From the NCBI GenBank assembly GCA_018401015.1, contig JAGYLP010000011.1, positions 1-56,978 on the forward strand: a DNA stretch of 56,978 nt. The letters are read 5' to 3'. This document shows, in pieces, positions 3,562 to 40,000 of this stretch. Made by a program: the position numbers and the translations under genes. The notes beneath the pieces were generated by a model. That model did no database searches. It was not told the origin of the DNA and saw nothing but the letters and a program-made list of their open reading frames with translations. Source of the DNA: Bacteroidales bacterium. GTDB taxonomy: Bacteria > Bacteroidota > Bacteroidia > Bacteroidales > M50B96. How positions within the stretch are numbered: position 1 is the first letter of the stretch; each line of letters begins with the position of its first letter.

Positions 3562-5748
3562 TTATCGGGTAAAGAGCAATTCACGGTATTTCGGTAGTGG
3601 CCAAATTTCATCATCGACTATGAGTTCGAGCTTGTCGATATGATAACGAATTTGTTCCATGCAATGCTTAATGTCGGAATGATAACGAGAGGCTTGGTCC
3701 TGTATCGAACCCAATTGATGAATCTCTTTCCGTTTTTGAACCATATCGACCACCAACTTCCGAATCATACTCATGTGGCCCGAGATCTTTTTTATACTCT
3801 GTAAATGGGGGGTTGCCAATTCGTCGTAATCTTCGGCTCCAAATAATTCCTTAATTCCTTTTACATTGTCGATGAGGACGTTTTGATATTTCAGAGCGGT
3901 TGGAATGATGTGGTTAATAGCCAGGTCGCCTAAAACGCGACTCTCAATTTGAACCGATTTAATGTAATTCTCCAGACGAATTTCCAAACGTGCTTCCAGT
4001 TCCCGCTTGCTTAGGATGTGATTGGTTTCAAAAACTTCGATGGAGTTTTTCGAAAGAAAAGCTTTGAGAGCTTCGGGTGCTGAAGAAACATTGCTGAGTC
4101 CTCGTTTTTTTGCTTCCTCAACCCAGTTTTCGCTATATCCGTTTCCTTCGAAGCGAATCTTCTTCGATTCAATGATGTACTCTCTGAGGATTTGTAAAAT
4201 GGCCTCGTCTTTTTTAATTCCTTTCGCGATGAGTCCATCCACTGACGCTTTGAATGCTTTTAGTTGATGCGCTACAACGCTGTTTAAAACAATCATGGGA
4301 CTTGCCGGATTGGCGCTGCTTCCAACTGCCCTGAATTCGAAGCGATTGCCGGTAAAGGCAAAGGGCGAGGTTCGGTTTCGGTCGGTATTGTCGAGCAAGA
4401 TTTCCGGGATTTTACCAATATCCAGTTTGATATCGGCTTTTTCGTCGGGGGTCATTTTCATTTTGACCCGATTCTCGAGATCGTCGAGTAATTGGGTAAG
4501 TTGGCTTCCGAGGAATACGGATATGATGGAGGGGGGAGCTTCGTGTGCTCCGAGTCGATGTTCGTTCCCGTGGGAAACGATGCTGGCACGGAGCAAGTCG
4601 GAATGATCGTGTACGGCTTTTACGGTATTGATTAAGAAGCTGAGGAATTGTAGGTTTTTGCGCGGAGTTTTGCCCGGAGCCAGGAGGTTTGTTCCGGTGT
4701 TGGTGAGCATCGACCAGTTGTTATGCTTTCCGGATCCGTTTACTCCTTTATACGGTTTTTCGTGCAGGAGTACCCGGAATTTATGTTTTCGGGCAATCTT
4801 CTGCATCAGATCCATGAGCAAGGCATTGTGGTCCACAGCAATATTGGCCTCTTCGAACACGGGAGCACATTCAAATTGATTGGGAGCTACCTCGTTGTGG
4901 CGCGTTTTGATAGGAATTCCGAGTCGCAAGGATTCCAATTCCAGGTCGCGCATGAAATTCATCACCCTGCCTGGTATAGAGCCAAAGTAGTGGTCATCCA
5001 TTTGTTGATCTTTAGCCGACGAGTGTCCCATCAAGGTTCTTCCGGTGAGCATTAGATCGGGGCGTGCGTGAAAGAGCGCTTCATCGACCAAAAAATATTC
5101 TTGTTCCCAACCTAAGGTTGCCACTACTTTGCTAACTTCTTTATCGAAATATTGACAAACTTCGACTGCTGCTTTATCGAGTGCAGTTAATGATTTTAGC
5201 AGCGGTAATTTATAATCGAGGGCTTCGCCGGTGTAGGAGATGAAGATGGTTGGTATGCAAAGTGTGTTGCCAATAATAAAGGGAGTGGAGCTTGGGTCCC
5301 AGGCTGTATATCCTCTGGCTTCGAAGGTGTTGCGAATACCGCCACTTGGGAAGCTCGATGCATCGGGCTCTTGCTGAACGAGCATGTTTCCGTCGAACTT
5401 CTCAATGACTCCACCCGATTCCGAGGGGTCGAAGAATGCGTCGTGTTTTTCGGCAGTGGCTCCGGTGAGTGGTTGGAACCAATGCGAGTAATGGGTTGCC
5501 CCCCGATCGACCGCCCAGGACTTCATTCCGGAAGCAACCTGATTGGCAATTCGCCGCTCAATCTTACTTCCTTTATGAATGGCATCCATCACACTGTGAT
5601 AGGCTTCCTCCGAAAGGTAAGCTTGCATCGCTTTTTTATTAAAAGTATTCTCTCCGAAATAATCGGAGCTCTTAGCTTTGGGAACGTCGACCTCAATGGG
5701 GGTGCGCGAAAATAGTTCAGCTAAAGCATCAAAACGTAATTTTCCCAT
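3562..5748 (-). CDS. glnN: Glutamine synthetase type III
   Basis: A 728-residue type III glutamine synthetase, the large dodecameric form common in Bacteroidota, which makes glutamine from glutamate, ammonia and ATP. The GSIII N-terminal domain is typical (RGATHYSHWFQPLTG at about 83-97). The catalytic barrel has GWEQEYF (213-219) for metal binding, EVAPNQFE (286-293), and HNNWS (342-346) in the ATP/glutamate site. The C-terminal several-hundred-residue helical extension specific to type III is complete. It is a single gene, converging on dnaA, with a candidate -7 element CAAAACTA/TAGTTTTG 33-40 bases upstream of the start. No PII or amt gene is adjacent. Confidence 0.97.
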   Translation of the reverse strand: MGKLRFDALAELFSRTPIEVDVPKAKSSDYFGENTFNKKAMQAYLSEEAYHSVMDAIHKGSKIERRIANQVASGMKSWAVDRGATHYSHWFQPLTGATAEKHDAFFDPSESGGVIEKFDGNMLVQQEPDASSFPSGGIRNTFEARGYTAWDPSSTPFIIGNTLCIPTIFISYTGEALDYKLPLLKSLTALDKAAVEVCQYFDKEVSKVVATLGWEQEYFLVDEALFHARPDLMLTGRTLMGHSSAKDQQMDDHYFGSIPGRVMNFMRDLELESLRLGIPIKTRHNEVAPNQFECAPVFEEANIAVDHNALLMDLMQKIARKHKFRVLLHEKPYKGVNGSGKHNNWSMLTNTGTNLLAPGKTPRKNLQFLSFLINTVKAVHDHSDLLRASIVSHGNEHRLGAHEAPPSIISVFLGSQLTQLLDDLENRVKMKMTPDEKADIKLDIGKIPEILLDNTDRNRTSPFAFTGNRFEFRAVGSSANPASPMIVLNSVVAHQLKAFKASVDGLIAKGIKKDEAILQILREYIIESKKIRFEGNGYSENWVEEAKKRGLSNVSSAPEALKAFLSKNSIEVFETNHILSKRELEARLEIRLENYIKSVQIESRVLGDLAINHIIPTALKYQNVLIDNVKGIKELFGAEDYDELATPHLQSIKKISGHMSMIRKLVVDMVQKRKEIHQLGSIQDQASRYHSDIKHCMEQIRYHIDKLELIVDDEIWPLPKYRELLFTR

Positions 5749-7646: not shown

Positions 7647-9374
7647 TTAAACCTTGGTCCGATAAGGTTTACCGTATTTTTTGCGTCGCAGTGTATGGAC
7701 TAATACACCAATTGATACAACGAATAGAATTGGAATGAGGGTATTAATGAGTTGCCATTTTTCTTCCTCGGCCATGATTTTACTTTTGTTGAGTAGCCTC
7801 ATGCTGATTTCCCGGTTTCGAATGTCGATGAGTTGGTCGTCGTCGAGCAAATAACTGAATACATTGAGCATAAAGTCTTTGTTCCCGTTAAAGGTCATGT
7901 CGGTGTGACGGTCGTAACCCAGCGCAAAAGGAACCGGTTTGTCGAGCATCCGGAACTGGTTTTTTATTAGGTCACCATCGCCGCATACCACCATCGCGGT
8001 TGAGCGGCTTGTTTCCCGGAAACTGATTTCGTTGTTTTCGAGGAACTCGGGGGTAAGTCGGTTTTTGTAATTAGAGGTAAATTCCCCTTCGAGTAAAACG
8101 GCAACCGGGAGGAAAGCTTCCGGGAAATTTCGTTCTTCCAAGGGTTCATTAATCATGTCGAGTTGGACAAGGGCCGGAGCATTTATTTTTTTGCTGCGGG
8201 GGGAACTGTAGAGCAGTACTTCTTTTTTTACCGAAGGTGTACCTCCAATGGTATCGACGGTAGAGGCAAATTCAGTTTTTACTAAATCGAGATTCTTTCC
8301 TAGCAGGTGTTGGTTGTTTGGATAGAGTAGCGGAAAATAAACCCAGGGGAATAAACGGAAACGAGGTTGCACTCCGGCGGGGGAGGTGTTAATTTTTAAC
8401 CCACCGCAATTCATGTCGAGGATTAAATCGGGGTTAACCCGCGCTCCGTATCGGAAAAGTTGATCGTCGAGGTTGGTTTTGTTCACCATTGCGACAAAGG
8501 AGGGTTTTTGAGCCAGGCTATCCATGTTGGCAGCAACTGAGTTAAGGCACCAAACCGCTTTCCCACCTCGCATAATGAACTGATCGATAATGTATTTATC
8601 TTTCTCGGAATACGCTTGGTCGGGAGCCGCAACCAAAATGCAATCGAAAAAGTCGAGCGCATTGATTTGTTCGTTTAAGGTAACGCGCTCTACTTCGTAA
8701 TACTCTTTCAAGCTGGCTTCCAGGTCGGCTAACTCAATTTCGTCTAATTCACCATGACCTTCCAGGATAGCGATTCGCTTTTTAATCAGCGTTTTCATTT
8801 TAACCATGGTCTGAATCAGCTGATACTCGAGCAGATTAATGGATTGGCTGATGTTTTCGTCACCTGAGTAGGCAATATTGGTTTTCAAAAATTCGATGGG
8901 TTCTTCCTGGTCGCGATAAGTGAGGATGGCTCCGGTGAAGAGTAGTTTTTCGGTGCTTCCGCCTTTTTGATCCATTTCTTCCACACTGGTAGGAGTAAGT
9001 CCTTTGTCCATAAGTTGACGGCCAATCTCGCCTCGGGTAGCGAGGTCGGGGCTTTCGAAAGGATCGATGAATTGGTATTCGATGGTTGCACCTGCATAGA
9101 TGCGAAACTCATCGAGGATATCGCGAATAGCTTGTTGGAGCTTACGAAACCCAGCAGGTAATTCTTCTCCATCGAGATAAATTTTGAAGTAATACACATC
9201 GTCGAGATTCTTCAGGACTTCCTTGCTGGAATCGCTGAGGGTATGCCGTTTTTCGGCTGTCAGGTCGATGCGGAACACGACAAATTGGGCGATGAAATTG
9301 AGTAAAAGAACGATTCCTACTACACTGATAAACTGAAGAAGGTGCGATTGTTTGAGTTGTTTTCGATGCGTCAT
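7647..9374 (-). CDS. gldG: Gliding-motility ABC transporter auxiliary protein GldG
   Basis: GldG partners GldF (and the ATPase GldA, not in this window) in an ABC-type complex needed for gliding and chitin use in Flavobacterium johnsoniae. The protein has a TM anchor (LLQFISVVGIVLLLNFIAQF), the family opening IDLTAEKRHTLSDSSKEVL just after it, the long ABC_transp_aux domain with a GHGELDEIEL segment, and a second TM near the C-terminus (LINTLIPILFVVSIGVLV) followed by a basic tail. I start at MTHRKQLKQ (9374, 575 aa): a weak AAAGGG precedes it, and an earlier in-frame ATG (9440) lies inside gldF. It is 13 bases from the gldF stop and therefore translated with it. Confidence 0.92.
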   Translation of the reverse strand: MTHRKQLKQSHLLQFISVVGIVLLLNFIAQFVVFRIDLTAEKRHTLSDSSKEVLKNLDDVYYFKIYLDGEELPAGFRKLQQAIRDILDEFRIYAGATIEYQFIDPFESPDLATRGEIGRQLMDKGLTPTSVEEMDQKGGSTEKLLFTGAILTYRDQEEPIEFLKTNIAYSGDENISQSINLLEYQLIQTMVKMKTLIKKRIAILEGHGELDEIELADLEASLKEYYEVERVTLNEQINALDFFDCILVAAPDQAYSEKDKYIIDQFIMRGGKAVWCLNSVAANMDSLAQKPSFVAMVNKTNLDDQLFRYGARVNPDLILDMNCGGLKINTSPAGVQPRFRLFPWVYFPLLYPNNQHLLGKNLDLVKTEFASTVDTIGGTPSVKKEVLLYSSPRSKKINAPALVQLDMINEPLEERNFPEAFLPVAVLLEGEFTSNYKNRLTPEFLENNEISFRETSRSTAMVVCGDGDLIKNQFRMLDKPVPFALGYDRHTDMTFNGNKDFMLNVFSYLLDDDQLIDIRNREISMRLLNKSKIMAEEEKWQLINTLIPILFVVSIGVLVHTLRRKKYGKPYRTKV

Positions 9375-16540: not shown

Positions 16541-16987
16541 ATGAAAAATTTTGTTTTAGTAATCGTTCTTTTACTTGGAGTTCAATTGTTTGCAAAAGCC
16601 AATTCGGCCGAACTGTTTCAATACGACCGGGCTGAGTTAGCTCAGGAATTTGCTGAGCTGGAAGCTTTGGAAAGTTATCTCCTCGAAAACGAAGGGGTTG
16701 ACTACGAGGCTTTAAAGGTGCAAAATCATCCCGTTCTTGCCAATGTTCATCTTGCCAATGCAAATCAACAAGGTCCCTTGGGAGCCCTTTTCTCCATCGA
16801 CGATATGGATTGGTCTGCTTTTGCATGGGGGTTTTGCTGTTGCCCTATTGGATTTTTCCTGGTGGCAATCAATAATGAATCTGGTCAGGATTCCAAAACC
16901 TCTTACTGGATTGGCGTTGTTGTTTCGGCGGTTTTGGGTGGCATATCCAATGGTATTTATTTTTCTAGCCGAGGAATTATTCTCTAA
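16541..16987 (+). CDS. Exported or membrane protein, 148 aa, unknown function
   Basis: Begins with a clear signal sequence (MKNFVLVIVLLLGVQLFAKANS). An acidic segment of about 40 residues rich in Glu and Ala follows (YDRAELAQEFAELEALESYL), then two hydrophobic spans at about 90-106, containing WGFCCCPIGFFL with three adjacent cysteines, and 122-140. The two-span C-terminal part recalls small Bacteroidota TM2-like proteins but I cannot assign a family. It has its own promoter with a structured leader and its own terminator, so it is a stand-alone unit. Confidence 0.75.
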   Translation: MKNFVLVIVLLLGVQLFAKANSAELFQYDRAELAQEFAELEALESYLLENEGVDYEALKVQNHPVLANVHLANANQQGPLGALFSIDDMDWSAFAWGFCCCPIGFFLVAINNESGQDSKTSYWIGVVVSAVLGGISNGIYFSSRGIIL

Positions 16988-18112: not shown

Positions 18113-18937
18113 ATGCAAAAGACGATTTCGATTTTACTGAGCCTTTTCTTCAGTATTTCTTTGTGGGGTCAGGATTTATACGATGAAGTCCATACGCGGC
18201 AGTTTGCCAATTTTCTTTATCAGAGCAGGGAGTTTAAACTTGCTTCGATAGAATATGAGCGATTGGTCTTCTTCGATCCGACCGATACCCTGGCCAGCTA
18301 CTACTTGATAAAAAGTTATCGAAAGCAGGGCAATTTCCGGAAAGGCTTGTCGCGTGCTAACCAATTATTCCCCGATAATCGGATAGCTCCTGCTCATATT
18401 TCGCGGGAGAAAGCCCTAATGATGCTCCATCAGCGTAATTATTTTACGTTGTTTGATTATCTGGAAAATAGCAGTTTGGAAGGTGACGACCGGATGCTTT
18501 TTGCTGTGGGTGGGCGCTTATTGCAACACGATTATGCCACTGCCAGGAGTATGGCCGAAGCAATTTCTCCCGATTCTCGAACCGATTTGCAAACTATGCG
18601 TTATTTAAGCGAGGAAGCACTTCGTTTAAAGTATAAATCGCCGGTTACGAGTACTTTGCTCTCGGTGTTGGTTCCCGGTTTGGGTAAGGTTTATACCGGG
18701 AATTGGAAAGATGGGATTTTCTCGTTTCTGTTCACCACAGTAGCTATTTATCAGGCCTACCGTGGGTTCGATCAGCGAGGGATTAATAGTATTTACGGTT
18801 GGGGCTACGCAGCTCTGGGAACCGGTTTTTATTTGGGAAATTTATATGGCTCGTATAAAGCTGCAAACAAATATAACTATCAACAACGACATGCATTGGA
18901 CCACCGGGTGGAAGCTATTTTTGATCGGATGGATTAG
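18113..18937 (+). CDS. Exported TPR-like membrane protein of the yidD operon (copy 1)
   Basis: Signal peptide MQKTISILLSLFFSISLWGQ; then helical repeats of TPR character (residues about 28-170, for example EFKLASIEYERLVFFDPTDTLASYYLI); then a C-terminal hydrophobic region (about 178-260) beginning SPVTSTLLSVLVPGLGKVYTGNWKDG. The PGxGxxYxG motif before hydrophobic spans recalls DUF5683/TM2-like domains. It starts directly at the yidD stop codon and its last 47 bases overlap the next gene, which encodes a protein with the same layout. Function unknown. Confidence 0.72.
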   Translation: MQKTISILLSLFFSISLWGQDLYDEVHTRQFANFLYQSREFKLASIEYERLVFFDPTDTLASYYLIKSYRKQGNFRKGLSRANQLFPDNRIAPAHISREKALMMLHQRNYFTLFDYLENSSLEGDDRMLFAVGGRLLQHDYATARSMAEAISPDSRTDLQTMRYLSEEALRLKYKSPVTSTLLSVLVPGLGKVYTGNWKDGIFSFLFTTVAIYQAYRGFDQRGINSIYGWGYAALGTGFYLGNLYGSYKAANKYNYQQRHALDHRVEAIFDRMD

Positions 18938-19846: not shown

Positions 19847-21091
19847 ATGATTAAACGCATTTTCGCTTTGTCCTTTGTTTTTCTTACAGGACTTTCCCTA
19901 AGTTCGCAGGCACAATCCACCACTACCGATGTGCTCTTAGGACAAAACACGGAAGTGAATACCATCACTACTGCCGTTCCTTTCTTGTTAATTACCCCCG
20001 ATTCCAGAGGAGGAGCTATGGGAGATGCCGGTGTGGCCACATCGCCCGATGCTAATTCCATGCATTACAATCCTGCCAAGTATGCTTTTATCGAAAACGA
20101 CATGGGTTTCTCGGTATCGTATTCGCCGTGGCTGAGTAATTTAATCGATGATATTCACTTGCTGTACGCTTCTTACTTTCAGCGTTTTGGCAAGTTCCAG
20201 ACAGTAGCTGGTTCGCTGCGCTACTTCTCTCTGGGCGATATTACCTTTACCGATATTGTTGGAAATACAACCGGCCAGTTCAAACCGAATGAGTTTGCCC
20301 TCGACTTTGCCTACAGCCGTCTTTTAACGAAGAACTTCTCAGGAGCTATTTCTTTGCGCTACATCCATTCGAACTTAACCGGAGGTATTTTTGTCGAAGG
20401 GATAGAATCGCGTCCGGGAAATGCTGTTTCTTCCGATGTTGCCTTTTTTTATCAGCGGGATGTCGATTACTTCAACTATGATGGTAAGCTGGCATTCGGA
20501 ATTAATCTTTCCAACATGGGTTCGAAGATTAGCTACACTGCCAATGCACAAAAAGACTTTTTGCCCGCTAACTTAAAACTCGGTGGAGCTTATACCATGG
20601 AAATCGACGACTACAACCGCTTTACTTTTACCGTCGATTTGAACAAATTGTTGGTTCCAACGCCTCCTTATTATAACCCTGATAACACTGCCATTGATGC
20701 CGACGGAAATCGTGAAATTCTCTATGGAATGAATCCGAATGTTTCGGTAGTAAGTGGTATATTTCAATCTTTCTACGATGCTCCGGGGATTATCGATGGT
20801 CAAATTCAGGTTGCTCGCGAAGAATTCCGCGAGATTAATTACTCCTTTGGTGCAGAATATTGGTATGCGAATCAGTTTGCCTTACGCGGAGGATATTTCT
20901 TCGAACATCCTACTAAAGGAAACCGACAGTTTTTTACCTTGGGTCTGGGAATGCAGCTCAATGTTTTCAGCCTTGATTTTTCTTATCTGATGTCGCCCAT
21001 TGCCCGACACCCTCTTGCCAACACGCTTCGCTTTACTTTAGGCTTTAATTTCGAGAATTTCCAAAACAACCAAACTCCTAAAAATATTTAA
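19847..21091 (+). CDS. porV: Type IX secretion outer-membrane protein PorV
   Basis: PorV (LptO), a FadL-type beta-barrel that collects T9SS cargo from the SprA translocon and delivers it to the PorU sortase. 414 residues with a signal peptide (IFALSFVFLTGLSLSSQAQ) and the family opening PFLLITPDSRGGAMGDAGVATSPDANSMHYNPAKYAF, followed by alternating beta-strands (YFSLGDITFTD, AISLRYIHSNLTGG, LKLGGAYTMEID) and the ending RHPLANTLRFTLGFNFE. Its presence agrees with the several T9SS cargos in the window. Own promoter and own terminator, so monocistronic. PorU is not adjacent here. Confidence 0.95.
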   Translation: MIKRIFALSFVFLTGLSLSSQAQSTTTDVLLGQNTEVNTITTAVPFLLITPDSRGGAMGDAGVATSPDANSMHYNPAKYAFIENDMGFSVSYSPWLSNLIDDIHLLYASYFQRFGKFQTVAGSLRYFSLGDITFTDIVGNTTGQFKPNEFALDFAYSRLLTKNFSGAISLRYIHSNLTGGIFVEGIESRPGNAVSSDVAFFYQRDVDYFNYDGKLAFGINLSNMGSKISYTANAQKDFLPANLKLGGAYTMEIDDYNRFTFTVDLNKLLVPTPPYYNPDNTAIDADGNREILYGMNPNVSVVSGIFQSFYDAPGIIDGQIQVAREEFREINYSFGAEYWYANQFALRGGYFFEHPTKGNRQFFTLGLGMQLNVFSLDFSYLMSPIARHPLANTLRFTLGFNFENFQNNQTPKNI

Positions 21092-24201: not shown

Positions 24202-25965
24202 ATGAGTAAAACGTTTATCTCTATTCTGACTATCTTTCTTGTTAGTCTGAACGGATTCTGGGCCAATGGGCAGAATATATTCACGAATGCTGTAAGTAAT
24301 AATTGGACGGATGCAGCTAATTGGTCCGGAGGCCTGCCCGAACCCAATGAGGCAGTTTCTATCGAAGGAACTGTTAGTATTTCTACAGCGGTTAGTTGCG
24401 GGAGCGTTACCATTAATGGTGATTCTCGAAGCATTACTGTAAATTCTGGAGGAACCTTAACTTGTACAAGTCTCTCTGTAGGCGCTGGAGTTTTTAGCGG
24501 TATTGCGATTAATTTTGGAGGCGAAGTTATTGTGAACGGTTTTATGAATAACTCTGCCGGAGTGGTCGTTAATTCGGGGGGCAAACTACGCGTTACCGGT
24601 GCTGTAAACAATCAAATTACAGAAGCTTCCATTCTGATAAACTCCGGTGCATCGCTTATTACTGAATCTACCATTGAAAATAATGGTACATTCAAATCAG
24701 TGAATCATGTCACCTCTACTTCTTAAACTGAATCTACCATTGAAAATAATGGTACATTCAAAGTTTCCCGCTTATTTCAAAACGACCGCTGGCATCTTAT
24801 TTCCCTCCCGGTTGCAGCATGGGACTCTTACGATTTATTCCTAGACGATTATTTGCAAGAATGGGTAGTTGACGATAGCAACCCTGCTACCAATTGGGCA
24901 TGGCGAGAAATTACCTCCCCCGAAGAGGTTTTAGTTAAAATGAAAGGTTATTCTTTTTACCGAACCGATGCCAATGAGACCTTTGGATTTACCGGTGCAC
25001 CTAATACTGGTGCTCAATCGATTGCTTTAGCAAAGGATGATGATAATACAGCTGGAACTGATAATAAGGGTTGGAATTTGGTAGGTAATCCTTATCCATC
25101 GGGTTTGAATTGGGCCGATTTGGATGATACCTACGGAGCGATTTATTACTGGGACGATAACGGTTACAAATCCTGGAATGCCGGAAGCGGAGATGGGAAA
25201 TCCATTGTGATGCCCTTGCAAGGATTCTTCATTTATGTGCCCTCCAATGGAGCAGATAACTTTAGTGTGAGCAACTCGAATCGTGTTCATCCAACTAATT
25301 TGACGTATTACAAAGAAGCCGCCGATGCTGGTTTGTTGGTGCTCGAGGCTACTTCGCCTGAACATACGGATCGTTTGTACATTCGATGGAACGAAACAGC
25401 AACCGGAGCCTTTGATTTCACTACCGATGCTTTCAAAATTTTGTCGGCCAACGAGGGAGTATCCATGCTTTATTCACTGGGCGACGATGCGAGTAAGCTC
25501 TCTATCGACCAGCGTCCTGCTACCGAAAGTATTCCGGTAGGATTTTTCAACAGCGAGCCTGGAATCTATGAGATAGCTTTGGGTCAATCGAGTGGTTTAC
25601 AAGGTGTTGTGTTGGAAGATACAGAAACGGGTGTTTTTCACCCCTTGGCCGAAGGTCCTTATGAGTTTATATGGAGCGAAACCGAGTCGGACGAACGCTT
25701 CAAGCTACACTTCGAATCACTGAATATAGAGGCTGGCGGATTGCTGGATAAAGTATTGGTATTTGCGCATTCGGGAGTTCTTTCGGTTAAGGGAATGAAT
25801 GCCGGATTCATTCGGGTGAATGATGTAATGGGACGTGAAGTATTGTCGCATTATGCCGAGGGTGATGATTTGATACAGCTTCCTTTAAGTGTTGAAACCG
25901 GAGTTTATTTGGTTAGCATTCAGCAAGGGGCGCAAACAATTACTCATAAGGTTTTTATTAACTAA
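24202..25965 (+). pseudogene. T9SS-sorted surface protein interrupted by an in-frame stop
   Basis: One frame runs from ATG 24202 to the stop at 25963-25965 but is cut by a single TAA at 24724-24726. The first part is a 174-residue piece with a signal peptide (ISILTIFLVSLNGFWANGQ) and beta-helix-like repeats (SITVNSGGTLTCTSLSVGAG). The second part, in the same frame, continues NGTFKVSRLFQNDRWHLISLPV, then a WNLVGNPYPSGLNW module common in T9SS proteins, and ends in a type A sorting domain (IRVNDVMGREVLSHYA ... GVYLVSIQQG). The stop lies in a 30-bp segment between two copies of a 36-bp repeat. Removing one repeat plus the segment (66 bp) gives an uninterrupted 565-residue protein. It may be a switched-off allele, a true pseudogene or an assembly fault. 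Confidence 0.8.
24661..24762 (+). repeat. 36-bp direct repeat with internal 13-6-13 palindrome
   Basis: Two identical 36-base copies (24661-24696 and 24727-24762) in direct orientation, 30 bases apart. Each contains TGAATCTACCATT, a 6-base spacer GAAAAT, and AATGGTACATTCA; the two arms are complementary at 12 of 13 positions. In the first copy the arms are 24663-24675 and 24682-24694. The intervening 30 bases end in the TAA stop that splits the host gene. Arm and spacer sizes resemble dif (11-6-11) and loxP (13-8-13) sites, so a recombination site is possible; slippage at a hairpin is the alternative. Confidence 0.85.
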
Positions 25966-31656: not shown

Positions 31657-32684
31657 TTTTTGGCGGTTGGCTATTGGCGGTTGGCTTTTAGCTTAATTTT
31701 TTTGCGTGTTTTTCTTTGAACTAGAATGATTGCCACGCGCCGGGAGCCGCGCGGCAGCTCGTTGTTGCTTTTGGCTTTTGTCGCATAAGGTCAGCTTTAG
31801 TTGTTGGCAATTGGCTTAATTTTTTTGCGTGTTTTTCTTTGAACTAGAATGATTGCCACGCGCCGGGAGTGTCGCGCGGCAGCTCCCGTTGCTGCTGCCT
31901 CTCGCCTCACCCAGTCGCCCTCTTCGCTAGTCGCCGAGTCGCCCACTCGGCTCTCTACCCAGTCGCCCCTTCGCTAGTCTGCCGAGTCCCACTCGCCCTT
32001 TCACCCAGTCGCCCCTTCTGCTAAGTCTCTAAGTCTCTTGGTCGCTTAGTCGCCCACCAGCTGCGACATTCACCCAAATAAAGATTGCGGAGGTTTTATA
32101 AGGCCGCAAAGGTTCGCGCAAAGATCGCTGAGGACCCGCAAAGTTCGCGGAGTTTTTCGCTTGAACTAGCATGATTGCCACGCGCCGGGAGCCGCGCGGC
32201 AGTTCGTTGTTGCTGCATTCGCCTCTTCGTCCAGTCGTTACTTCGCTAGTTCGCCGAGTCGCCCGCAGCACTGCCCTTTCACCCAGTCGCCCTCTGCTAA
32301 GTCGCCGAGTCGCCCCTTTCGCTAAGTCTCAAGCCCTTGGTCGCTTAGTCGCCCACCAGCTGCGGAGCATTCACCCAAATAAAGATTATGAGGTTTAAGA
32401 GATGGCTGCAAAATAAGTTCGCGCAAAAGACGTTGAGGACCCGCAAAGATCGCGGAGTTTTCAGTTTGAACTAGAATGATTTGTTATGCGCCGAGCCGCG
32501 CGGCAGCTCAAGCTGTTGCTGTATCTGCTCCTTCGTCCAGTCGTTACTTCGCTTAGTTCGCCGAGTCGCCCACTCGCTTCGTCGTTCACTGCTCATTGTT
32601 CACCGCTCAATCCACAGCGTGCTCCTCATGAAAAGCAAATTATTCTGCTGGTTTTCGTGGATTGAGGATTTTGGCTTTTTCTTT
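31657..32684. repeat. Non-coding interspersed repeat cluster, about 1 kb
   Basis: No credible gene. Four copies of a GC-rich block beginning GAACTAG(A/C)ATGATT and containing the palindromic core GCCGCGCGGC or a variant start at about 31718, 31841, 32163 and 32468. The first two share a preceding AATTTTTTTGCGTGTTTTTC segment and are 123 bases apart. After copies 2, 3 and 4 come runs of short quasi-repeats (AGTCGCC, CCGAGTCGCC, TCGCTTAGTC). After copies 2 and 3 these are followed by a conserved CACCAGCTGCG ... CACCCAAATAAAGATT ... GAGGACCCGCAAAG segment leading into the next copy, so the long unit is about 305-322 bases. Simple repeats of GGCGGTTGGCT type occur at 31660-31690. Composition differs sharply from neighbouring genes. 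Confidence 0.8.
32606..32666. repeat. Long stem-loop at the end of the repeat cluster
   Basis: CTCAATCCAC (32606-32615) is perfectly complementary to GTGGATTGAG (32657-32666), with smaller complementary pieces (GAAAAGCA / TGCTGGTTTTC) inside. It lies 18 bases beyond the stop of the minus-strand PEGA gene but has no T-tract on that strand. Confidence 0.5.
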
Positions 32685-34022: not shown

Positions 34023-37000
34023 ATGTTAAAAGTAGCTGTTAGTCAACTAAATAAATGCTTTGTTGCTCGAATCTTTTCCAGCCATTGGGCTTCCTTTTTC
34101 AGAACCATTTTCATACTGGTTTTTCTCATAGCGTACCTGCTCCCGGCTAGTTATGGGCAGCCTAATTGGTCGCCCATAACCACGTTGAATAGTCATGTGG
34201 TGTTGCTCGAAAATGTCAGCATTCAGGGGCTTGCTGCCCAGAACGGCGATTACGTTGGGGTATTTTACGATTCCCTGGGCGTTCCTGCTTGTGCAGGCAT
34301 GGTCTTATGGGAAGGTGTTACTACGGCCGTGGTGGTGTGGGGCGACGATGATTTGACCCCGGAGAAAGATGGATTTGCCGACCAGGAGTTTTTCCAATGG
34401 CGAATCTGGCGCGCTGCAGATTCTGCAGAGTATGTAGCGGAACCTACGTACCTGACTAGCCTGAACGATAGTGCATTTTTCGTCGTGAATGGAATGAGTG
34501 GCTTGTCGTTGTTGAACGGCACGGATCCCTATTTCAATCCATTCTTGGTTAGTGGAGAATCGACCAATCCTCTCTGCTTCGACGATTGCAATGGGAGCAT
34601 TGCGCTAAGTATCGAAGGCGGACAGCCTCCCTACCAAGTGAATTGGTCGAATGGACATACGGGTATTTCCCTGATTGATGCCTGCGCCGGAACGTATGAG
34701 ATTACCGTAAGCGATCAAACCGCTAACTTGCCGGAGTACGACTTACCCTGGACTTATCAGCTTACCACCGATATGCACAATATTGTGGTGTCGCAACCCA
34801 TTGTTACGGTTAATGGTCAGTCGCCTTCTCCCGGCGATTACGTGGGTGTTTTTTACGAATCGGGCACCGATTTGGTTTGTGGCGGTTATTCCCTTTGGAC
34901 TGGTGGGAACATCATTGTAAGTGCTTGGGGCAACGATCCTGCAAATAGCGATAAAGATGGGTTTTATCCGGCGGAAGCTTTCCAATGGAAGCTTTGGCGA
35001 TCGGCCGATAATCTGGAAGTGTCGATGATTGCTCAATATAGTCCGTTTTTTACTCATTTGGGGACCTTTGCTCCCGGCGGATTCTCGTCCCTTACCGGCT
35101 TAACCGGAACCTATACACCTCCTCCGGCTCCCGAAGTGAACGATACGGTGCTGGTCTTTACCTTGCTTGCTCCCGATGCCTTGGTGCTTCATGACAGTAT
35201 TTCGGATTATAGCGGATTTCCAATCAGTGTTTTCGGAGCGCAGGATGGTTTTATTCTGACCGAAGTTACCGGCGGAACCGAGCCCTACAGTTATGTTTGG
35301 TCGAATGGTTCCACAGAAGCTGAACAGATAAATTTGAGTGCCGGAACTTATTCGCTCACTGTGCAGGATGCTAATGCTTGCAGCTTGGAATCCACTTGGG
35401 AATTAAGTGAGCCCGCTCAGGTGTTTGATTATCAGGTGGTAGCCGATATTGTCCCGGTGGCTTGTTCGGGCGATTGCACCGGTAGCATTTCAATCGAAGT
35501 GTTGGGTGGAGTTGCTCCGTATAGCTACAGTTGGTCGACCGGAGCCACGGGTTCAGAGCTTGATTCCTTGTGTACAGGCAGCTATTCCCTAACCGTTGTG
35601 GACAGCTCGGAGCCAGCGCCCGTTTCGTCATTCGATTGGACGTATTCCGCAGGTTCGATTACTCACACGATCCTTGTTTCGCCCGGAAATTTAACAGTGA
35701 ATGGGCAGCCGGTGGCTGTTGGCGATTATCTCGGAGTATTTTATGAAGACAATGGAACCTGGCAATGTGGCGGTTACACGATGTTTAATGGAATACAAAC
35801 CGGTTTGACTGCTTATGGCGACGACCCGCAAACTTCCAGTGTAAAAGAAGGTTTTGCAGCTGGTGAAAGCTTTGAATGGCGGATATGGAAAGCGCAGGAT
35901 TCGGTCTTAGTCGATACCGTAATTCCGGTTTATAATACCACTTTTATTCATAATGCTCAGTTTGTTGAGGGTGGAGTGTCGGGTATTCTGAGCCTCGCTG
36001 GGATTCATCAGGCTGAAACACCCGAAAATACGTTGATTTATACCTTTGAAGTGCCAGAAAATTCTCCTATCGAGCTTAGTTCAAATGTGTCGGATTACAA
36101 TGGATTTGGGGTATCCTTTTTTGGAGAGGACGATGGTTTTATCGAGTTGACGGCTCAAGGGGGCGTTTCGCCGTACACCTTTCAATGGTCCACCGGAGCG
36201 ACCAGCTCAGCCATCGATGGTTTGGGGGCTGGCAGCTATTTCGTAACGGTGACCGATGCTTTGAGTTGCACTCGAGTTGATTCGTTCGAGCTATCGGAAC
36301 CTGCTCAGCAGTTGTTTCTTTCGACAAATGCTGTGGTTACTAATGAATCGTGCCCCGGAACTTGCGACGGAAGCATTCAGCCCAATCCGCAAGGCGGTTT
36401 TCCTCCTTATTTCTATAGCTGGTCGAATGGTTCAAGTTCTGCTAGTTTAGAAGGCTTATGCCCTGGCAATTATTCGCTTACTATTTCCGATAGCAACTTT
36501 GGAAGCCCAAGCCCTGTTCCACTTCCCTGGACCTATACCAATACGGGCATTAACCATACTTTTTTGCTCCAATCCGGAACCATTCAGATTACCGGCTCAC
36601 CCATTGAAACGGGCGATTATGTTGGAGCTTTCTACGAATTTGGAGGTCAATTGTATTGCGGCGGCTATGTACAATGGGCCGGAACCAACACGACCCTTGT
36701 TGCCATGGGGAATAATTCCACTTCGGGAAAGAATGGATTCTTTGTTGGCGAAACAATCCAGTGGAAGGTTTGGAAATCGGGTCAGTATGTAGAGATAGAT
36801 ATGTCGGCCAGTTATTCTCCTGCTTTCCCCGCTATGGGATCATTCATGGCCGGTGGGACTTCAGTTGTAACCGCTTTAACTGGTGAATATGAATTGGTTT
36901 CCGGTACCGATCCCTTGATAGTGAGTTTTGACGTGCTCAGCACGCCTGCTTTACAAGTCGACTCAGCTCTTGTTCAGGAAGTAAGTTGTTTTGGTGGTTC

Positions 37001-40000
37001 CGACGGAAGTATTGAATTGATCGTGCTTGGTGGAACTCCTCCCTACGAAGCCAGTTGGAGCAATGGAAGCACGGGTTTGATGCTACTGAACCTCGAATCC
37101 GGAGCTTATCACTACACCCTTACTGACGCGAATGACTGCTCTCAGGAAGGAAGTATTCAAATGGCTGAACCCACCTTACTCGAATTGATGGAGACCCATT
37201 ATGCCGGCATATCCTGTTTTCAGTCTAACGATGGGGCGGTTAGCTTAACTCCTCAAGGAGGAACGGCACCTTATCTCCTAAGCTGGTCCGATGGTTCAAC
37301 TGCATTTGAACGAGAAGGCTTAGCACCAGGAACCTATGCTTATACCCTAAGCGATGCAAATGCCTGTTCGATGGAAGGGGAATATCTGTTTGAGGAGCCT
37401 GATTCGATTGTTATTCAGCAGGTTGGGGGAGAAGAGCCTTCCTGTTTTTCCTATTCCGATGGAAGCCTAGAGATTGAAGTAATGGGTGGAACTCAGCCTT
37501 ATGAATTGGTATGGTCGAATGGAGCAACCGATTTGGCCTTGAACCTGATTTCCGCTGGAAACTATTCGGCAAGCGTAAGCGATGCGAATAATTGTCAGTC
37601 GGTTTTAAATCTGGTTCTTACTGAGCCTGAGGAGTTAACAGCTTCTGTGCTCATCGATTCAATATCCTGTTGGGGAGCAAACGACGGAAATATTCAGGTT
37701 CAGATTGACGGAGGTACTCCTATTTTTGGAATCACCTGGAGCGGTGGAGCGGTTGGATTTACTCCTCAGAACCTGCCTTCCGGAAATTACTCCTTTACAG
37801 TGAGCGATTTAAATGCATGTAGTTATAGTGCAACAGTTGCCTTGACGGAGCCGGAACCTATTCAATTGCTGTCGGGTACTGTCGCATCTCCAAGCTGTTT
37901 TGGTTCGGCCGATGGAATGATTCAACCTTCGATAGCCGGCGGTACAGCTCCTTACGCCTATTCCTGGTCGAATGGCGAAACAGCTTCGTTAGTGGAAGGT
38001 CTTTCTGCCGGAACTTATATGCTAAGCGTAAACGATAGTCGGAATTGTAATGCCTCATTTGAATTTGTGCTCGAAGATCCTGCCGTTCTCAACTATTCCA
38101 TGCTAAGCGAGCAGGGAGTGAGTTGTCCGGATGGGAACGATGGATCCCTGAGCTTGAGTGGATTGGGAGGGAATCCGCCTTACTCCCTTATCTGGTCGGA
38201 TAATTCCACCGGTTTTACTCGGGAGTCCTTAACGGCCGGAACCTATTACTTTACCCTGACCGATGTGAATGATTGTAGCCTGAGCGATAGCGTGGTCGTA
38301 GAGGAGCCGGAATCATTCCAGGCGAATCTGTTGCAGGAATCAAGTCCGGCTTGTTTCGGCAATTCCGATGGTAGCTTAACCGTAGCCGTAAGCGGAGGCA
38401 CTGCACCTTATTCCTATGAATGGTCGAACGGAGCAACCCAGCTCATGCTCGATCAGCTTGCTGCTGGTAGTTATCATGTAAGTGTTACCGATGCTAACGG
38501 ATGTGCATTTGAATCGAGTTTTTCGCTTGCGGAACCGGATCCGATCGTGGTGGTTCCCACGGTGTTCGATGCTGGTTGCGCGGGCTGTACCGACGGAAGT
38601 ATTCAGCTCGGTGTGAGCGGGGGAACGGCTCCCTATGCCTATTCCTGGTCGAATGGAGCAAGTACCACTTCGATCAATGGGCTGGCTCCGGGCAATTATC
38701 TCTTTACCGTGACCGATGCTAATTCCTGCGCTTATCAGAGTACCGTCGTCGTAGGACCCATCGTTGTTTCACCGGGTTGGGATTTTATCAATACCGGAAA
38801 TAACCATACTATTTTGATTCAAGCTTCAACCCCCATTACAATTGATAATGTACCCATTGAACCGGGCGATTTTATTGGTGTGTTCTACGATTCGCTTGGT
38901 ACTCCGGTTTGTGCCGGTTATCAGCAATACACCGGTCAGGTTGGAGCGGTAGCCGCTTTTGGCGAAGACGATGGCCTGGATGGATTTGCTCCTAACGAAA
39001 AGTTTCAATGGTATATTTGGAAAGCCTCCACTCAGGAAACCTTCCCTGCTACTGCCACTTACATGACCAGCATGCCGAATCAGGGTAATTATGTCATCAA
39101 TGGAATGAGTGGTTTAGCATCGCTTTCGGTCGAAACAACCGGAGCTCAAACCATCGAACTGGTTTATAATTGGAATTTGTTCTCTACTTATCTCGAACCG
39201 TTTAATCCATCGTTCGATACGGTGGTGAATAGCATCGTCGATAAAATTATTTTGGCGAAAGATTTTGCAGGAAATCCTTATTGGCCTTCTTTTAATTTGA
39301 ACCAGATAGGCGATTTTACCCCAGGCGAAGCCTACCAGATTCGGGTTACCGAAGCCTGTAGTTTCGACGTGTCGGGTTCAATTGTTTTTCCTGAGTTTCA
39401 TCCCATTTCCTTACCGGTAAACTGGAGCATGGTAGCTTATCTGAGAAATAATCCGGCTCCCATAAATGAAGTGGTGAGTGCTGTTGAATCCAATTTAATT
39501 CTTGTGAAGAATACTTTTGGATTTATCTATTGGCCTGCTTTTGGGGTGAACGATATTGGTACTATGCTTCCCGGACAAGGATTTGCTTTCAAGATGAATG
39601 GAGCAGCTAGCTTCACCTATCCTCCCAATGCGGTGGAGTATGCAGCTGCCAGTTTTCAAAGTAGTTTCTCATCCAGGCATTTCGAGCTGGCCACCCGTGG
39701 CGAGTACGACCAGACCCTGGCGATTCCTGCTCATGCCTGGCCGGTTCTGCCGGAGTGGGGCGATGAGGTAGCTGCCTTCAATGGTCGTGGCGAGTTATGT
39801 GGATCGGGTATTTATCAAGGTGGGAACATGGCCTTTACCCTGTGGGGGGCACCTGTAGGTGAGGACAATGTATTTCTTCCGGGCGAGGAAATGAAACTAA
39901 TCTGGTATCGACAATCTGCTCAGGATGAAGTTGAAATGGAAGTAATAGAGTGGAGCGAAGGAGAGGGAGCTTTTAAAAACGGACAAATTTCTGTTGTGAG

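Follow-up and report, generated by a model that had tools for sequence, protein, structure and literature searches.

The question that this locus raises is how a gene for a T9SS-sorted surface protein came to carry two perfect copies of a hairpin-forming sequence around a stop codon, and whether this arrangement is a device that turns the protein on and off, as an earlier note on this DNA had proposed, or the trace of a single accident. From our point of view, chances are about even that a recent, lineage-specific and one-off insertion of 66 bp, tied to a DNA hairpin, breaks this T9SS cargo gene, and that the break is probably revertible by slippage without being a dedicated switch.

Within the window, i.e. 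the whole stretch of 56,978 nucleotides analysed here (contig JAGYLP010000011.1 of the Bacteroidales assembly GCA_018401015.1), the sequence ACTGAATCTACCATTGAAAATAATGGTACATTCAAA is present in two directly oriented copies of 36 bp that are 100% identical and repeat with a period of 66 bp (Table 1). Each copy consists largely of a quasi-palindrome, which takes up 32 of the 36 bases, is centred in the repeat and leaves two bases to spare per side; its arms, TGAATCTACCATT and AATGGTACATTCA, pair at 12 of 13 positions around an asymmetric spacer of 6 bases. The 30 bases between the copies end in a TAA (24724-24726) that is in frame with the ORF starting at 24202. In all these points, namely the coordinates and the full identity of the copies, the complementarity of the arms around the spacer and the terminal in-frame stop of the intervening segment, our analysis bears out the earlier description.

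Table 1. Positions of the features at the interrupted surface-protein gene.
Feature	Positions	Strand	Remark
Repeat copy 1 (36 bp), encodes TESTIENNGTFK	24661..24696	+	
Repeat copy 2 (36 bp)	24727..24762	+	
Inserted segment, 30 bp, in-frame TAA at its end, single-copy in the genome	24697..24726	+	
Quasi-palindrome, 32 bp, 13-6-13, 12/13 paired, within copy 1	24663..24694	.	
Quasi-palindrome, 32 bp, within copy 2	24729..24760	.	
N-terminal part of T9SS cargo gene, 174 aa, then TAA supplied by the insert	24202..24726	+	Signal peptide, beta-helix rungs by eye
Remainder of gene, frame unchanged, T9SS type A sorting domain at its end	24763..25965	+	TIGR04183 24.8 bits

The site pattern matched twice in the window and not once in 100 dinucleotide shuffles, and the fold of the repeat as single-stranded DNA is better than that of 200 out of 200 shuffles (z -4.45). 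Hairpins of comparable size with a 6-base loop number 23 in 746 kb of the genome, both repeat copies included; many of the remaining ones look terminator-like by eye. An RNA-family search of the stretch returned nothing at the repeats and two matches elsewhere, both below the gathering score.

A scan for isolated repeat pairs with a gap unrelated to both flanks found 12 such pairs in 1.53 Mb, i.e. 53% of the genome in non-random stretches, with approximately 3.5 kb counted twice, periods of up to 160 covered and the two CRISPR array contigs omitted. The pair in the surface-protein gene is the sole one of the 12 that combines repeats of at least 30 bp with a gap of less than 60 bp, limits that were chosen after the finding was known. 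Of the 11 other pairs, three were inspected more closely. Identical hairpin-like repeats of 24 bp with a 26-bp gap (L120, about 5510-5583) and of 28 bp with a 73-bp gap (L143, about 4714-4842) lie mostly between ORFs in repetitive spacer DNA, and these two pairs probably mirror the geometry of the locus in non-coding DNA. Two identical 20-bp repeats around an unrelated 32-bp gap (L120, about 18812-18883) lie under two short overlapping ORFs. The window itself holds further repeats: mixed, partly tandem ones with units around CGCCCACTCGC and GATTGCCACGCGCCGGGAG at 31660-32586, the like of which were seen by eye on other contigs (e.g. L152); repeated motifs around GGTCGAATGG at 35270-38661, which by eye encode a Trp-Ser-Asn-Gly-type repeat, presumably of the sort that large adhesion or gliding proteins contain; and the arms of a 24-nt inverted repeat (9301-9324 and 16552-16575), 88% complementary and 7.2 kb apart.

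The gene is, as previously noted, interrupted by a repeat together with the stop-bearing 30-mer, and a one-copy form that lacks 66 bp would restore the reading frame. Past the TAA, another 412 codons follow without a stop, up to 25965, and since the frame is still open over this distance, a recent break is suggested. The C-terminal part exceeds the cut-off of the type A sorting domain TIGR04183 (23 bits), which agrees with the T9SS-sorted C-terminus claimed before; Pfam Por_Secre_tail stays under its cut-off there (19.9 vs 27). In the N-terminal part, where a putative signal peptide and a beta-helix were read by eye, G8 is the only match and lies below its cut-off. The gene for PorV, a component of the T9SS, lies further upstream in the window, at 19847-21091.

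Whether one copy or two represent the ancestral state can be judged from homologs. Of the 99 genomes sampled as relatives, 56 encode relatives of the C-terminal part, and at an E-value of 1e-45 or lower 13 of the 393 genomes in a sample of the order gave a match, the source genome among them. Among the matches listed, the closest homolog shows 43% identity over part of its length and the other genome of the same genus, which is 60% complete, 28-30%; a scan of genome_contigs by protein pattern for close relatives gave 25 matches, none of which was confirmed. Scored against the one- and the two-copy form were 34 homologous loci, mostly one per genome and a subset of the matches listed; L018, L028 and L039 were dropped, which left 31 that span the junction. 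One copy is favoured by 18 of these 31 and two copies by 12, with one tie. Among the ten best-scoring of the 34 loci, one copy is better in eight, L010 ties and L159, at rank seven, is better with two; five of the ten, namely L154, L009, L155, L157 and L034, a paralog from the same genome, are gap-free near the junction. This paralog (G000:C67:59312-60496) shares 37% identity with the broken gene and has an open frame of 1237 aa without the insertion. The 12 homologs that favour two copies are mostly lower-scoring, often with an additional rung visible by eye, and the form that L011, L012 and L029 prefer depends on how much upstream sequence is included. As the top ten split 8:1:1 for one copy, the 66 bp were most likely added in the source lineage; the mixed signal of the distant homologs, L159 and the side-switching loci weaken the case for a one-copy ancestry but do not overturn it. 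An ancestral one-copy form is, as such, backed by the best-scoring homologs (8/10), with a mixed picture among the distant ones.

The homologs with two copies could also be taken to mean that the additional rung of the beta-helix is old, i.e. that two rungs are ancestral, that gene conversion homogenised 36 bp of them and that a point mutation made the stop. The 66 bp would correspond to 22 aa, by eye approximately one rung, with both copies at the same rung position, and two copies score better in more than a third of the spanning homologs, as given above. We nevertheless regard this history as quite improbable, as it is favoured by just one of the ten best-scoring homologs and as the paralog from the same genome favours one copy. 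Moreover, identity drops at the edges of the repeats from 36/36 to 0.07 and 0.27, the values for the 30-bp segment against its flanks, and this sharp boundary differs from that of a diverged tandem repeat. The codon frame of the 30-mer does not help this history either, being coding-like in a test trained on the same gene and uninformative in a held-out test. A diverged tandem duplication of a rung was likewise set low, given perfect identity over 36 bp that then falls to near chance, and best-scoring homologs that are mostly without it.

Best-scoring homologs that match the one-copy form would fit an artefact of assembly or population as well, in which the true or majority form has one copy and the assembler merged variant reads. 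The genome is a draft of 84 contigs, and hairpins can favour chimeric molecules. However, at 102 bp the whole repeat-insert-repeat unit would be spanned by one read of the usual sequencing platforms, and a simple repeat loop cannot generate it, since the rest of the assembly offers no source from which the 30-mer could have been copied. We thus consider such an artefact unlikely.

What made the locus attractive as a switch is the shape of its repeats. With 13-base dyad arms paired at 12 of 13 positions, a 6-bp asymmetric spacer and a direct orientation, they do resemble a recombinase crossover, as the earlier note had pointed out, and recall dif and loxP in their inverted 13-bp arms, their asymmetric 6-bp centre and their presence as two direct copies. 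Excision between two sites of this kind would make the gene an ON/OFF switch operated by a tyrosine recombinase. The unlinked recombinase that this requires could be found among five matches over the cut-off in the genome, all of them on other contigs; a partial match with an internal TAG (G000:C15:1118-1366, L045) is probably a decayed integrase. The further sites on which such an enzyme might act were, on the other hand, looked for in vain. With up to 3 mismatches, the full site is present in the genome of 2,876,689 bases only as the two copies of the locus, the exact 13-base arms occur at this site alone, and the site is absent from genome_contigs and viral_contigs in one scan each, from which records close to the source genome were possibly left out.

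Nor is the palindrome conserved across relatives, since at the matching position in 32 homologs the arms pair at 1-7 of 13 positions, against 12 of 13 in the source gene, which also led us to reject a coding feature common to the family. The inner part of the palindrome, ACCAT...ATGG, recurs in homologs by eye and is likely a by-product of coding, as it corresponds to a T-I-x-N-N-G protein motif, and the outer arms are, on this comparison, private to the source gene. The 34 bp between the palindromes fall short of the minimum of 82 bp between lox sites for Cre and of 74 bp for Flp that the accessible part of PMC4929723 gives, even though other enzymes may differ. Finally, excision would be irreversible: it removes the 30-mer, and a return to OFF would require that the 66-bp circle be reintegrated. 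Because of the spacing, the uniqueness of the site, its lack of conservation and this irreversibility, we find a recombinase-driven switch hardly credible, and the central proposal of the earlier note is not upheld; its own caveats, hairpin-driven slippage and mis-assembly, still stand. The locus differs from dif and loxP in being a single one, in its spacing below the Cre and Flp limits, in having no recombinase on the same contig and in being unconserved. A literature search turned up no paper that combines phase variation and a recombinase with both T9SS and Bacteroidetes, and, among 13 papers on tyrosine-recombinase phase variation, Bacteroidetes surface proteins and direct repeats, the titles and abstract openings of the best ten did not show the arrangement.

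Any explanation also has to deal with the 30-mer. A genome search with 26 of its bases, allowing 3 mismatches, found no second copy, and its similarity to the repeat, to the reverse complement of the repeat and to 100 bp of either flank is not above that of shuffles, so that copying from any of these was rejected. Over 758 kb of the genome it matches exactly for 11 bases at most, against 10-14 for 60 single-base shuffles. In viral_contigs, neither the exact 30-mer nor three 20-mers were found; a phage search with the 30-mer and 6 flanking bases on each side gave E-values of at least 2 among the best 10 of 100 records, and the 7 rows of a plasmid search all had E-values of at least 2. On these comparisons, the 30-mer appears to match nothing beyond chance in the sequences searched.

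A target that is duplicated on either side of a short, non-local segment is reminiscent of CRISPR adaptation, as the product of spacer integration is, in the available portion of PMC8390005, an insert with the repeat duplicated at either side. One could imagine that Cas1-Cas2 inserted a captured short DNA into the hairpin site of the T9SS surface-protein gene, which served as a stand-in repeat, and thereby switched the gene off: attack at both ends of the hairpin sequence followed by gap filling would lead to the duplication and to a one-spacer neo-CRISPR, from which a later deletion between the repeats could restore the gene. As in a CRISPR unit, identical and largely palindromic repeats flank short DNA of other origin, and 36 + 30 bp are the dimensions of a type II-A unit, for which excerpts of PMC6895254 name G1 and G36 as integration points and substrates of 30 bp. 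The genome holds one Cas1 and one Cas2 on contig C70, beside a CRISPR array, and an adjoining ORF was taken for Cas4 by eye; a second array is also present. The repeats of the two arrays, 30 bp long and related to each other, number 13 and 53 full copies; the 64 spacers of the arrays measure 34-38 bp, and their commonest period, found in 33 of 64 intervals, is 66 bp and thus equal to that of the locus. The sister repeats of the arrays on C70 (L041) and C64 (L113) differ at 3 positions; Cas1, Cas2 and the probable Cas4 ORF adjoin the C70 array only, and the C64 array fills a contig of 3.5 kb. A hairpin as target would further fit the affinity of Cas1 for stem-loops: in the parts of PMC9456107 at hand, Cas1 binds stem-looped single-stranded DNA irrespective of sequence, and in an in vitro assay cited there the most frequent site on the control plasmid was an inverted repeat. 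With its single copy in the genome, the insert agrees with such an origin, too. Non-canonical (off-target) spacer integration has reportedly been described by Nivala et al. in 2018, to go by papers that cite their work.

The lengths, however, speak against the resident enzymes. In all 64 intervals, the arrays combine repeats of 30 bp with spacers of 34-38 bp, whereas the locus shows 36 + 30, so that repeat and spacer length both deviate, and a split into 30 + 36 would need six bases that match by chance, where chance extension in the native arrays is at most 3 in 64 intervals. By analogy with type V-A, in which an altered repeat length strongly cuts full-site integration (PMC13034035, in the portion available), a repeat of 36 instead of the native 30 bp would disfavour full-site integration here. 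The locus repeat also appears unlike the resident one. AATC(G)TACCAT is common to both if one gap is allowed (best gapped match 10/11), but this likeness is not significant, as it is equalled by 5.6% of the 36-mers in the window, or by 12.4% under looser scoring. At 37%, the G+C content of the insert is lower than the native spacers' means of 43% and 47%. The bases at the borders of the locus are A (top) and T (bottom), whereas, according to the accessible text of PMC6895254, a G is preferred in this place by type II-A Cas1-Cas2 in its off-target events, which are probably half-site. Cas9, in turn, had no match in the genome, with a model that did not reach its cut-off in any of 14 control genomes either, and no protospacer emerged from viral_contigs or from the phage (best 10 of 100) and plasmid rows described above. 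Lastly, the locus differs from a CRISPR array in that it lies inside a coding sequence and in that Cas1 and Cas2 were matched on another contig only. Taken together, the involvement of Cas1-Cas2 is a reasonable idea, which we consider possible but doubtful.

We rank an accident at the hairpin first, as no enzyme of unusual dimensions is needed. The ancestral gene would have contained a single 36-bp sequence that folds as a 12/13 hairpin, and a replication or repair accident at this hairpin would be the most likely mechanism. Both strands may have been broken at the feet of the hairpin, and fill-in across it from each side would then have left one copy per side, with 30 bp foreign to the site trapped between the new copies and supplying the TAA at which translation would end. 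That the insertion was tied to the hairpin we infer from the extent of the duplication, which is the palindrome plus 2 bp per side. The genome count, two site copies at one locus, is consistent with a single event, and no dedicated partner in the form of further sites was seen for the repeats. The hairpin accident accounts for the boundaries and for the single occurrence, but offers no origin for the 30 bp; after a template switch one would normally expect the template to be left behind, and that none was found for these 30 bp counts against this mechanism. End-joining, for its part, would have had to proceed without an obvious enzyme, since a Ku model had no match in the genome (the same model matched 1 of 14 control genomes).

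For direct repeats of 36 bp with a gap of 30 bp, replication slippage is expected to cause a precise deletion from time to time. The locus is in this respect akin to known direct-repeat slippage loci, with the same expectation, hairpins included, that one copy is occasionally lost together with the intervening DNA. Occasional precise deletion between the repeats would probably revert the gene, and this in one direction only, since the 30 bp are lost on deletion. The locus differs from slippage loci in that the intervening DNA is unique, and as this DNA cannot be regained, it would not be a reversible contingency locus.

Overall, the interruption of this surface-protein gene looks like a one-off insertion, not like a built-in on/off switch. 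Off-array integration by Cas1-Cas2 has been reported in vitro or under overexpression of Cas1-Cas2 (PMC9456107 and PMC6895254 among the sources, in the parts available). If Cas1-Cas2 was indeed at work here, the locus would be a natural case of immune-memory machinery mutating a surface gene of its host, with a hairpin as substitute for the CRISPR repeat. If it was a hairpin accident only, the gene would carry an ordinary, possibly revertible break, and the locus would caution that a single gene can show a misleading CRISPR-like or lox-like geometry.
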